From Synechococcus sp. WH 7803 (GTDB lineage Bacteria; Cyanobacteriota; Cyanobacteriia; PCC-6307; Cyanobiaceae), in contig CT971583.1 in the NCBI GenBank assembly GCA_000063505.1, positions 1,457,918 to 1,521,917 on the forward strand: DNA of 64,000 nucleotides. Reading direction: 5' to 3'. The notes under the pieces were generated by a model. The model searched no databases. It saw nothing but the letters and a program-made list of their open reading frames with translations, and was not told where the DNA came from. Made by a program: the position numbers and the translations under genes. Shown here piece by piece: positions 9,249-57,767 of the stretch; the stretch's first letter is position 1; each line of letters opens with the position of its first letter.

Positions 9249-9344
9249 TCACAAGTCTCACCACGAGACACATGACGCAAAAGCAAGACACGCGGTACTC
9301 TCAAGGTGTGCGGGCGTATGCCCACACACTCCTCACACCCCCCG

Positions 9345-9370
9345 GCCCGACGCGTTCGGGCTTTCTGTCT
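9345..9370 (+). terminator. Probable intrinsic terminator after guaB3
   Basis: GCCCGA, a five-base loop and TCGGGC form a perfect six-base-pair stem, followed by TTTCTGTCTT. The U tract is interrupted, so efficiency is uncertain. A second imperfect stem (GTGTGCGGGC / GCCCACACAC, 9306-9329) lies just upstream. Confidence 0.5.
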
Positions 9371-44252: not shown

Positions 44253-44348
44253 AGCGGAGAAGGGCGAAAACCCGAGGGCTGATGGTCGGAAGGTAAGGGT
44301 GGCGAAAGCGATTGGAATGGTTAGAAAGACCTATCTTTCAAATCCGCC

Positions 44349-45791
44349 ATCACGACGCCGTCCTTTGCTCTCGGTGGCCTTGCACCCGGCCCCACGATCC
44401 GGCCCCGCCAGTGGCAGCAGCAACTGATCCAGCTGCTGCGCCGACGCCTGGATCCGGTTGCTTCAGGATCGCGTGATGTACTGATCCATGCGGGGCCGGG
44501 TGCGGGGAAGACCCTCGGCGCCCTGCTGGCCTTCCAGGCGATGCAGGGGGAGGAACGTCTGCGCCGGGTGCTCGTGTTCTGTCACCGCACCTCAATCCTT
44601 GAGCAATGGCAACGAGCCGCGCAACGCCTGGGACTGCGTCTGGAGCCCTGGAACGGCCCTGGCAGCGCCCCGCTCGAGGCCGATGGTTGGCTGGTGAGCT
44701 ATCAGGGCGCTGGGCGGCAGGCTGAAGCACTCAAGGCCGAGCTGGCCCTTTGGAGCGAAGGCGCCTATCTGGCGATCGCCGACGAAGCCCACCATCTCGG
44801 TGTGGAGCCGGAAGAACCGGATGGGCCGGTGTGGGGGCGCACATTTCTGGGCCTGAGCCAGAGCGCACGGCTGCGGCTGGGGCTGACTGGAACCCCCTTC
44901 CGGGCCGACAACCTGGCGTTCTGCGCCGCCCGGAAAGTGCAAGTGGAAGAAGCCGGTGAGCGGATGGAGCAGATCCAACCGGATCTGAGTGTGGAGCCGC
45001 GGGAACTGATCGCTGCCGGCGATGTGCGACCGCTTGAATTTCGCTTCCAGGACGGCTGGGTGGAACACAGCCAGGAGGGCCAACCCGATCGCGAGGTGTC
45101 GCCCTTGTCGTCTGAGCAGCGGGAGAGCTGGCGGGCACGCAACCTGCGCCGGGCCATCCGCCTGGCAGACAGCAGCAGCATCGCTTTGCAGCTGCTGCTG
45201 CGCGCCCGAACCCAGCTCGAGCGGGTTCGCCAGCACCATCCCCGGGCAGCGGGCCTTGTGATCGCTCGGGACATCGACCATGCCCGAACCATCACCACCC
45301 TTCTCGAGGAGCAGGGTGATCGGGTGGATCTGGTGCATTCCCAGGATCCAAGCGCCTCGGATCGACTCAACGGCTTTGAACGCGGGACTGCGGATTGGCT
45401 GGTGAGCATCGACATGTGCGCCGAAGGATTTGATGCTCCCCGCCTGCGGGTCGTGGCCTATCTGACGACCGTGGCCACCCGCAGCCGTTTCATCCAGGGC
45501 ATCACCAGGGCCGTACGCCTCTGCGGGGAACGGGCCAGCCAAGAAGCGATTCCCCGCGACCCCTCGTTCGTCTTCGCGCCTGCTGACCCCCTGTTGATGC
45601 AGTACGCACGCAACTGGTCGCTGTCTGAGCCCTATCGCATTGCGGCACCCACCCAATCAGATGCTTCTGAAGAGTGCGCGACCGGAGGGGCGTGGCGAGG
45701 GCCGAGCCTGCCCCTGGAAGCCGTTGGCGACGGCGCTGGTGCGGTGATCCGAATGCGAACTCCGGAATTGCCGAAGTTTTTGCAGCGCTGA
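44349..45791 (+). CDS. SF2 DEAD/DEAH-box helicase without a canonical start codon
   Basis: Superfamily 2 helicase of about 480 residues. Motif Q-like R-P-R-Q-W-Q-Q-Q-L-I and Walker A H-A-G-P-G-A-G-K-T (Lys54) lie upstream of the first ATG in frame (44541); DEAH-type motif II is D-E-A-H (145-148), motif III L-T-G-T-P-F-R-A-D, and motifs V/VI are C-A-E-G-F-D-A-P-R and Q-G-I-T-R-A-V-R. The reading frame is open only from 44325 after a TAG and contains no ATG, GTG or TTG before 44541. I give 44349 (ATC, then T-T-P-S-F-A-L-G-G) as a guess. It may act on nucleic acid in repair or restriction-like roles; no nuclease partner is adjacent. Confidence 0.78.
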   Translation: MTTPSFALGGLAPGPTIRPRQWQQQLIQLLRRRLDPVASGSRDVLIHAGPGAGKTLGALLAFQAMQGEERLRRVLVFCHRTSILEQWQRAAQRLGLRLEPWNGPGSAPLEADGWLVSYQGAGRQAEALKAELALWSEGAYLAIADEAHHLGVEPEEPDGPVWGRTFLGLSQSARLRLGLTGTPFRADNLAFCAARKVQVEEAGERMEQIQPDLSVEPRELIAAGDVRPLEFRFQDGWVEHSQEGQPDREVSPLSSEQRESWRARNLRRAIRLADSSSIALQLLLRARTQLERVRQHHPRAAGLVIARDIDHARTITTLLEEQGDRVDLVHSQDPSASDRLNGFERGTADWLVSIDMCAEGFDAPRLRVVAYLTTVATRSRFIQGITRAVRLCGERASQEAIPRDPSFVFAPADPLLMQYARNWSLSEPYRIAAPTQSDASEECATGGAWRGPSLPLEAVGDGAGAVIRMRTPELPKFLQR

Positions 45792-47628: not shown

Positions 47629-47898
47629 TCAACGGCGGCGAGGGCCCCCGGGGCGATTGCCACCGGGACGACCACCAGGTGCACCGGCGTTGCGTTCCCG
47701 GTAAGTGATCCGACCTCGGGTGAGGTCGTAGGGACTGATCTCCACCAACACCTTGTCACCGGCAAGCAGTTTGATTCTGAATTTGGTGAGCTTGCCGGCT
47801 GCACGGCAGAGGCATTGGTGACCTGCGGGCTGCTCGAGGGTGACCAGGTAGAACCCGTTGCCCTGCTCTTTTTCAATCACACCCGAGGTTTCAATCAT
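47629..47898 (-). CDS. infA: Divergent translation initiation factor IF-1
   Basis: An 89-residue S1/OB-fold protein. The end L-A-G-D-K-V-L-V-E-I-S-P-Y-D-L-T-R-G-R-I-T-Y-R matches bacterial IF-1 very well, but the first half is unusual: the normal M-A-K-E-D start is replaced by M-I-E-T-S-G-V-I-E-K-E-Q-G, and the middle has two cysteines (H-Q-C-L-C-R-A-A-G-K). A basic Gly/Pro/Arg tail follows the OB fold. It may be a second IF-1 besides the ribosomal-operon copy, which is not in the window. Convergent with ntrC, 3 bases apart. Confidence 0.82.
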   Translation of the reverse strand: MIETSGVIEKEQGNGFYLVTLEQPAGHQCLCRAAGKLTKFRIKLLAGDKVLVEISPYDLTRGRITYRERNAGAPGGRPGGNRPGGPRRR

Positions 47899-48012: not shown

Positions 48013-48105
48013 ATGATCCTGCCCCCGCTGACGATGGACCTGGGCCTGCTGATGATTTCGATCGGCGCTGTCAATTTGTGGCGGGCACGACAAAAATCCA
48101 CCTAA
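48013..48105 (+). CDS. Possible 30-aa single-span membrane peptide
   Basis: Reads MILPPLTMDLGLLMISIGAV then N-L-W-R-A-R-Q-K-S-T: one hydrophobic helix and a basic end, the pattern of small membrane proteins. It lies 24 bases before the Nif11-like gene on the same strand. Too short for certainty. Confidence 0.35.
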   Translation: MILPPLTMDLGLLMISIGAVNLWRARQKST

Positions 48106-48129: not shown

Positions 48130-48378
48130 GTGTCTGAGTCAGCCCTGATTGCCTTTGCATCCCTGGTGCAGTCTGATTCCCAGGTGAGAGAGCAGGTGAG
48201 ACAAGCCCCAAGCCCTCAGCACGTGGTGGATCTGGCCAAGGAGCAGGGTCACGAGTTCACCCAGGCCACCATGATGAAAATGCAGGCTGAAAAGATGAAG
48301 CACCTGCACGACGACCATCTGAACGACGCGTCCAGCTGGGGAGAGGCCCTGCTTCTCTGCTTTGGAGGTCATTCCTGA
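48130..48378 (+). CDS. Nif11-like peptide
   Basis: An 82-residue protein with the Nif11 leader pattern: A-F-A-S-L-V-Q-S-D-S-Q-V-R-E-Q-V-R-Q-A then V-V-D-L-A-K-E-Q-G-H-E-F-T-Q-A. In marine picocyanobacteria this family gives the leaders of prochlorosin lantipeptides. Here there is no clear double-Gly cleavage site before a core, only one cysteine (near residue 77), and no modification enzyme nearby, so an orphan Nif11 protein is more likely. GTG start. Its TGA overlaps the CTG start proposed for the next gene. Confidence 0.68.
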   Translation: MSESALIAFASLVQSDSQVREQVRQAPSPQHVVDLAKEQGHEFTQATMMKMQAEKMKHLHDDHLNDASSWGEALLLCFGGHS

Positions 48379-48992
48379 CCCTGCTGCTGCACAAGCCGTT
48401 CGGAGTTCTCAGCCAATTCACCCGGGAGCCGGGAAGCCGCTGGGGCTGTCTGGCCGACTGGGTTGACGTGCCGAATGTGTACGCAGCCGGCCGGCTGGAT
48501 GCCGACAGTGAAGGGTTGCTGATCCTCACCGAGAACGGGCGCCTGCAACAACGGCTGACCGATCCCCGTTTCGGCCACTGGCGAACCTATTGGGTGCAAG
48601 TGGAAGGACTTGCGGACCACGGTCACCTGGCTGCGCTGGAACAGGGGGTGGTGATCAAAGGCCAACGCACCCGGCCGGCCCGTGCGACCAGCCTTGATTC
48701 CAGCTTCTGGTTTGATCTACCGGAGCGGACACCCCCCATCCGCGAGCGACGCACCATCCCCACCTCCTGGCTGAGCATCAGCCTCCGCGAGGGCCGCAAC
48801 CGTCAAATCAGACGGATGACGGCGGCCGTGGGCCTGCCGACCCTGCGTTTGATACGCCGCAGTATCGATTTAATGGACGGGGGCCCGCCTCTCAGTCTTG
48901 AGGGCCTGGCTCCCGGTCAATGGAGACCCGTCAACTCCGCGGAAGAGGAGCGGCTGAAGGCTCTGCTCAAGACCCAGGGAGCACGCCGGTGA
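48375..48992 (+). CDS. RluE/RsuA-type pseudouridine synthase with CTG start
   Basis: Modifies uridine in rRNA (RluE group). About 205 residues: T-L-L-L-H-K-P-F-G-V-L-S at the N-terminus, the catalytic Asp42 in A-G-R-L-D-A-D-S-E-G-L-L-I-L-T, and R-E-G-R-N-R-Q-I-R-R-M-T-A-A-V-G. The first ATG/GTG/TTG in frame is well inside this core, whereas CTG at 48375 has GGAGG six bases upstream and gives the family's expected N-terminus. It overlaps the Nif11-like gene stop (CTGA). Its end overlaps the convergent methyltransferase by 26 bases. Confidence 0.85.
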   Translation: MTLLLHKPFGVLSQFTREPGSRWGCLADWVDVPNVYAAGRLDADSEGLLILTENGRLQQRLTDPRFGHWRTYWVQVEGLADHGHLAALEQGVVIKGQRTRPARATSLDSSFWFDLPERTPPIRERRTIPTSWLSISLREGRNRQIRRMTAAVGLPTLRLIRRSIDLMDGGPPLSLEGLAPGQWRPVNSAEEERLKALLKTQGARR

Positions 48993-56395: not shown

Positions 56396-57767
56396 TTCCG
56401 GTCTTATCGCCACTGGCGGTAAAGACCTCGACTCCACCGGCTATGCCTGGTGGTCCGGAAATGCCCGCCTGATCAACCTGTCCGGCCGTCTGCTGGGTGC
56501 CCACGTGGCCCACGCTGGTCTGATGGTGTTCTGGGCCGGCGCCATGATGCTGTTCGAGGTGAGCCACTTCACCTTCGACAAGCCCATGTACGAGCAGGGT
56601 CTGATCCTGTTCCCCCACGTCGCCACCCTCGGGTACGGCGTTGGACCTGGCGGTGAGGTCACCGATCTCTACCCCTTCTTCGTGGTCGGTGTGCTGCACC
56701 TGATCAGCTCCGCCGTACTTGGCCTCGGCGGCCTCTATCACGCCCTGCGTGGTCCTGAAATTCTCGAGAACTACTCCACGTTCTTCTCTCAGGACTGGCG
56801 TGACAAGAACCAGATGACCAACATCATTGGTTATCACCTGATCCTTCTGGGCGTCGGCTGCCTGCTGCTGGTCTTCAAGGCCATGTTCTTCGGCGGCGTC
56901 TACGACACCTGGGCCCCCGGCGGTGGTGATGTGCGTCTGATCACCAATCCCACCCTGGATCCTGGCGTGATCTTCGGTTATCTGTTCCGCGCCCCCTTCG
57001 GCGGCGAGGGCTGGATCATCGGTGTGAATTCCATGGAGGACATCATCGGTGGCCACATCTGGTTGGGTCTGACCCTGATCTTCGGTGGCATCTGGCACGT
57101 GATCACCAAGCCTTTCGGCTGGGTGCGTCGTGCCTTCATCTGGAACGGTGAGGCCTACCTGAGCTACAGCCTCGGCGCCCTGAGCTTCATGAGCTTCATC
57201 GCCTCGGCTTACATCTGGTTCAACAACACCGCTTATCCCTCGGAGTTCTACGGCCCCACCAACGCCGAAGCCTCCCAGGCCCAGAGCTTCACCTTCCTGG
57301 TGCGTGACCAGCGCCTCGGCGCCAACATCGGTTCCGCCATGGGCCCCACCGGCCTGGGTAAGTACCTGATGCGTTCACCCACTGGTGAAATCATCTTCGG
57401 TGGCGAAACCATGCGCTTCTGGGACTTCCGTGGTCCCTGGCTGGAGCCCCTGCGTGGCCCCAATGGTCTGAGCCTCGACAAGCTGCAGAACGACATCCAG
57501 CCCTGGCAGGTGCGTCGTGCCGCTGAGTACATGACTCACGCTCCCAACGCGTCGATCAACTCCGTGGGCGGCATCATCACCGAGCCCAACTCGGTGAACT
57601 TCGTGAACATCCGCCAATGGCTGGCTGCCACGCAGTTTATCCTGGCCTTCTTCTTCCTGATCGGTCACCTCTGGCATGCGGGCCGCGCCCGTGCTGCTGC
57701 TGCCGGTTTTGAAAAAGGCATCGACCGTCAGGCCGAGCCCACGCTGGCTATGCCCGACCTCGACTGA
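56379..57767 (+). CDS. psbC: Photosystem II CP43 chlorophyll protein
   Basis: Inner antenna protein of 462 residues with six membrane helices, starting at a GTG inside the end of psbD ([18 protein letters not shown]). It has the large lumenal loop with [10 protein letters not shown] and the chlorophyll-binding His residues, and ends in [15 protein letters not shown]. The psbD/psbC overlap is conserved from cyanobacteria to plastids. A strong intrinsic terminator follows. Confidence 0.97.

Follow-up and report, generated by a model that had tools for sequence, protein, structure and literature searches.

In E. coli, infC starts at AUU and is autoregulated by IF3. The pseudouridine synthase gene described here resembles infC in carrying a conserved noncanonical start on a translation-related gene, but infC belongs to an IF3 autoregulation loop, whereas the synthase gene has only infA as a divergent neighbor. 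Described systems of two further kinds share features with it, namely (i) termination-reinitiation at NTGA overlaps (Huber et al. 2019, PMC6728339; PMC12548453), which is similar in its −4 nt overlap and in the coupling of neighboring cistrons, and (ii) the rare bacterial CUG starts (PMC11497404, PMC9845219), which are similar in their initiator codon and in the low efficiency to be expected of it. The overlaps discussed in the available text of the first two papers are of the ATGA/TGATG and NTGA types (PMC6728339, PMC12548453). NTGA is given there as the commonest, with a coupling that needs no strong sequence motif and is lowered by IF1 depletion (PMC12548453); for cyanobacteria, fewer than 10% of gene pairs are given as overlapping, and about 40% of overlaps as having a Shine-Dalgarno motif (PMC6728339). 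A word search did not find "CTG" in PMC6728339 or "CUG" in PMC12548453. According to the accessible parts of the CUG papers, such starts amount to 20 ORFs in 69 genomes (PMC11497404, PMC9845219) and 0.024% of annotated bacterial starts (PMC11497404), the efficiency of CUG initiation in a reporter was 0.86% of that of AUG (PMC11497404), and GUS protein was absent from CUG constructs in tobacco chloroplasts and E. coli (PMC9845219); those parts do not describe coupling to an upstream stop for the reporter constructs. Unlike the NTGA systems, the synthase gene appears to start at CTG and keeps this codon when its upstream partner changes; unlike the rare CUG starts, its CTG is found repeatedly in ten genera of one family, in most cases adjoining or close to an upstream stop. 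No CTG start for this gene or in cyanobacteria was reported in the titles and abstract beginnings of the literature matches listed. CUG starts and coupled overlaps are each known, and their lasting combination in one gene looks new.

The gene lies in the 64-kb window (the whole stretch of DNA analyzed here), where, read from a CTG at 48375..48377 on the plus strand, it occupies positions 48375..48992 as 205 codons plus TGA; this start codon is the one to which the 5'-end comparison of relatives, described below, points. Downstream of infA (the IF1 gene; 47629-47898, minus strand), the plus strand carries, in order, a conserved micro-ORF of 30 codons (48013..48105; product MILPPLTMDLGLLMISIGAVNLWRARQKST), a Nif11-domain ORF (48130..48378), and the synthase. 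The micro-ORF has no family match in Pfam or NCBIfam, and 25 of the 31 loci listed have a relative of it in front of the synthase. The Nif11-domain ORF has a GTG start and 82 codons and matches PF07862 (49.9 bits) and, above the cut-off, TIGR03798 (44.2 bits), the latter over residues 1-68, so that 14 residues remain in which a core peptide would have to lie if the ORF were a RiPP precursor with a Nif11-like leader. As a side observation, infA stands beside the operon with the CTG start, and any link between IF1 and coupling at this operon would be speculation. The window also carries the regulatory RNAs Yfr1 (9308-9364, plus strand) and IsrR (56796-56982, minus strand), beyond which Rfam at gathering thresholds found nothing in the 64 kb. 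An RNA hairpin at the synthase start was considered and rejected (folding z-score, 0.41).

The CTG at 48375 immediately precedes a conserved T-L-L-L-H-K-P-F-G, and a protein initiated there would have the predicted N-terminus (fM)TLLLHKPFGVLSQFTR. Upstream of it, the frame is open for 28 codons, back to a TGA at 48288-48290, and between that stop and a GTG at 48468..48470 (plus strand), 31 codons downstream of the CTG, it contains no ATG, GTG, or TTG. The proposal of the initial annotation that this CTG, and no canonical codon, gives the conserved N-terminus is thereby borne out, as is its estimate that a start at the first canonical codon would remove 31 residues. The two elements that it placed around the CTG are likewise present as described, namely a CTGA overlap (48375..48378, plus strand) with the TGA of the Nif11-domain gene (48376-48378) and a Shine-Dalgarno-like GGAGG (48364..48368, plus strand) separated from the CTG by a 6-nt spacer.

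Read from the CTG, the protein matches PF00849 over profile positions 3-152 of 152 (61.5 bits), contains a PseudoU_synth_2 domain, and includes in its translation the sequence GRLDADSEGLL, a form of the GRLDxDSEGLL motif that we take to hold the catalytic Asp. It passes the subfamily threshold of TIGR00093 (149.3 bits versus a cut-off of 109.3) and misses that of the RluE equivalog NF008487 (175.3 bits versus 284), which is still its best-scoring NCBIfam model; we therefore call it RluE-like rather than a proven RluE. Pseudouridine synthases of the RluE type modify U2457 of 23S rRNA. The nearest solved structures, 2oml and 2olw, are both named ribosomal large subunit pseudouridine synthase E, and they align to the protein from residue 3 on. 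This alignment bears on the possibility that translation begins only at GTG 48468, the earliest canonical codon in frame, and that the 31 codons upstream of it are untranslated; a protein of this form would match PF00849 over profile positions 38-152 only, losing positions 1-37. A second observation concerns how these codons change. Compared with the reference locus, L001, nine of the 29 available relatives showed, over the 30 codons that follow the CTG, synonymous:nonsynonymous differences of 5:0, 11:0, 10:0, 15:2, 15:3, 15:4, 15:4, 12:4, and 14:5 (10:0 in L004 and 15:2 in L006), and the nonsynonymous share was larger in the remainder of the gene than in this segment in all nine. By this measure, the 30 codons from the CTG to the first canonical start evolve as protein under constraint, and we regard a start at GTG 48468 as almost certainly wrong.

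To place the CTG among its relatives, the 5' ends of 101 distinct loci were compared. A strong synthase match was present in 171 of 300 sampled genomes of the family, and synthase matches were present in 57 of 60 relative genomes (in G031, G033, and G036, the match was no stronger than what elsewhere indicates a paralogue). A set of 51 loci was obtained from 60 by removing two without the motif, seven duplicates, and L057 (of another family by name) and by adding L111; a further 50 came from 60 extra loci, hand-picked among the 171 matches for genus coverage, after the removal of two without the motif and eight duplicates of earlier loci. Within the 101, 12 named loci were assigned to the family solely from their names and identity, and eight other named loci matched family genomes. 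In 43 of the 101 loci, the 25 codons preceding the conserved start contain no ATG, GTG, or TTG, and a CTG was found at 0 to −2 in 36 of these 43 and at 0 to −8 in all 43. Across the 101 loci, the NTG codons at 0 to −2 were CTG in 47, TTG in 15, GTG in 11, and ATG in one. As CTG makes up 4.9% of triplets, in any frame, in the DNA just upstream, its presence at the conserved start exceeds chance as far as these counts can tell; the loci share ancestry, however, and so their numbers are not counts of independent events.

The CTG-only loci span ten genera as labeled in the searches (the window's own, g6, g33, g42, g47, g48, g53, g54, g68, and g70), those of g53 and g70 having their CTG 8 or 6 codons upstream, and TTG and GTG occupy the CTG position in other genera. 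Most relatives within the genus have no canonical start that would give the same N-terminus, and the CTG recurs among them. The same CTG is found across many assemblies, including several single-contig genomes, which excludes a sequencing error; the two explanations that the initial annotation had named as fatal to its reading thus both fail. Of the 47 loci that have CTG at 0 to −2, 11 also possess a canonical start within 25 codons; CTG use is therefore not forced in those. Of 52 loci, most of them from other phyla, two lack the motif, two lack a canonical start within 25 codons, and the remaining 48 have one; the 19 loci compared from other families of cyanobacteria include one (L125) whose open frame has no canonical start. 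In this locus, from genome G048, the synthase CTG lies behind AGGAGGGG.

Two loci narrow the choice of start further. In L194, the CTG follows an in-frame stop with the single codon ACC in between, and in L012 the gap is two codons, which leaves hardly any alternative start. The same loci bear on the idea that translation begins at another noncanonical codon upstream, for example, the in-frame CTG at 48357. A CTG does occur in frame at −6 in most nif11-type loci, where conserved nif11 codons for Leu and Cys generate it; in L012, however, a stop divides the upstream CTG from the synthase, and L194 has no room for such a codon between its stop and the CTG. We consider an upstream noncanonical start very unlikely. 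Insofar as sequence can show it, then, the CTG start is real and is kept over a family.

The feature common to the CTG loci is closeness to an upstream stop. The CTG overlaps the nif11 stop by 4 nt in 21 of the 47 loci and the micro-ORF stop by 4 nt in nine, making 30 with a 4-nt overlap with either gene, and in 15 others it lies 3-26 nt after the micro-ORF stop; in relatives without nif11, it is this stop that adjoins the synthase start instead. Altogether, 45 of the 47 have an overlap or a gap within about 30 nt, the other two being L005 (154 nt) and one without assignment. The Shine-Dalgarno 5-mer, by comparison, is found in four of the 47, L001-L004 (the window and its three closest relatives), and a 4-mer in nine more, so that stop proximity, and not a Shine-Dalgarno motif, is what these loci share. 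The "strong" Shine-Dalgarno of the initial annotation accordingly stands as a GGAGG in the window and loses its emphasis, because most CTG relatives lack it. Among loci with a measured distance (five CTG-only and eight canonical loci have none, and 10 with a CTG at the start and a canonical codon farther upstream were set aside), the start lies >30 nt from the upstream stop in one of 38 CTG-only loci (L243, 34 nt) versus 10 of 40 canonical ones (Fisher p 0.007, a value that ignores shared ancestry). These positions at or just after upstream stops support the earlier suggestion that CTG initiation occurs by translational coupling. Coupling to a full-length nif11 does not appear to be strictly required, since L008 and L021 keep the CTG behind a nif11 ORF that appears damaged. 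In L005, nif11 is eroded, and a TTG directly precedes the CTG.

In the same 21 loci, the 4-nt overlap with nif11 leaves the synthase in the −1 frame with respect to nif11, and a −1 ribosomal frameshift could in principle yield a Nif11-synthase fusion with no initiation at all. By eye, however, no slippery heptamer was seen at the junction, and the last nif11 codon of CTG loci varies (TCC, AAC, TTC, or AGC). Moreover, the upstream ORF ends before the CTG in 15 of the 47 loci, the in-frame stop of L194 lies two codons before the CTG, and L025 and L026, with nif11 and a GTG start, have another frame relation. A frameshift origin of the synthase is thus improbable in the extreme.

We consider CUG initiation by termination-reinitiation the best explanation and hold it with good, though not full, confidence. 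Synthesis would be initiated with fMet-tRNA at CUG 48375, by ribosomes supplied mostly by the upstream gene, which would terminate at the overlapping UGA of nif11 and reinitiate on the spot. After termination at this UGA, the CUG would be in or next to the P site of the ribosome, where the initiator tRNA would be used; in the window strain, the GGAGG may help to hold the terminating ribosomes, and in relatives without nif11, the stop of the micro-ORF would supply them. The enzyme would then be expected at a low level tied to nif11. We infer the CUG decoding, the coupling, and the low product level, and the negative results of published CUG reporters slightly lower our confidence in the CUG start. 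Given the poor efficiency of CUG in these reporters, either expression would be very low or the coupled setting would relax codon choice. A gene that keeps CUG across many genera therefore offers a natural test of reinitiation stringency, in which one may ask if ribosomes that reinitiate are less strict about start codons than those initiating de novo.

Why the codon is weak is a separate question from where the protein starts. The CTG may be a neutral by-product, in that coupled ribosomes would tolerate any NTG without the weak codon being favored, and we give this reading about an even chance. In CTGA/nif11 species, replacing the C by any other base would create a canonical start, and for Ser (TCN) the change would be synonymous. 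This third base of the last nif11 codon is invariant in 18 species, but it is one of nine such positions among the 81 third positions of nif11, so its invariance alone is no evidence of selection, and we rejected selection on the C as deduced from it. The TTG and GTG found at the same place in other genera likewise fit neutrality. Against it stands the near-absence of ATG, which occupies the immediate start position in one of the 101 loci, as opposed to 47 with CTG, 15 with TTG, and 11 with GTG; this is suggestive of an avoidance of strong starts.

In a control region of 164 kb (the window plus 100 kb upstream), 141 ORFs are conserved and 129 were testable against genome G021; two of the 129 have 15 or more protein-conserved codons ahead of their first canonical start, a lower bound, since genes with any canonical codon upstream are missed. 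One is the synthase and the other a ResIII-type helicase (44325-45788, plus strand; PF04851 and Helicase_C), 4 kb away with the IF1 gene between them. The conserved N-terminus of the helicase, including its Walker A motif, lies upstream of its first ATG at 44541, and its candidate start is an ATC at 44349. At the fourth codon before a conserved S-F, 30 of 33 loci carry ATC and one each ATT, ATG (L192), and TTC; no canonical start precedes the S-F motif in 26 of the 33, and nine loci share the order TGA-CCG-ATC with five codons to the motif. The helicase thus probably starts at ATC, which we offer as a lead rather than a result. A rival would have it translated from an upstream start through a +1 frameshift at TTT-C or through readthrough of the TGA. 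Across 30 helicase loci, the upstream peptide is joined in frame in seven (six of which have an ATG or TTG in front), +1-shifted in 14, and interrupted by TGA in nine. Under a gene caller limited to ATG, GTG, and TTG, the helicase would lose its Walker A motif, and the synthase would lose its first strand in a large part of the family.

A broader reading, to which we are only tentatively drawn and which we think rather doubtful, is that, in this cyanobacterial family, just-terminated ribosomes reinitiate with relaxed start-codon discrimination, and that the synthase and the helicase belong to a class of CUG and AUC genes that may be kept low by design. Just before the helicase lies a nearly invariant 15-mer, GAATGGTTAGAAAGA (44315-44329), which occurs once each in 31 of 60 genomes; its reading frame is continuous with the helicase in the seven in-frame loci of the 30 above, is +1-shifted in the 14, and is broken by the TGA in the nine. 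It lies inside another gene in G033, G037 has one further match, and in 29 genomes it is positioned, by coordinates, just upstream of the helicase.
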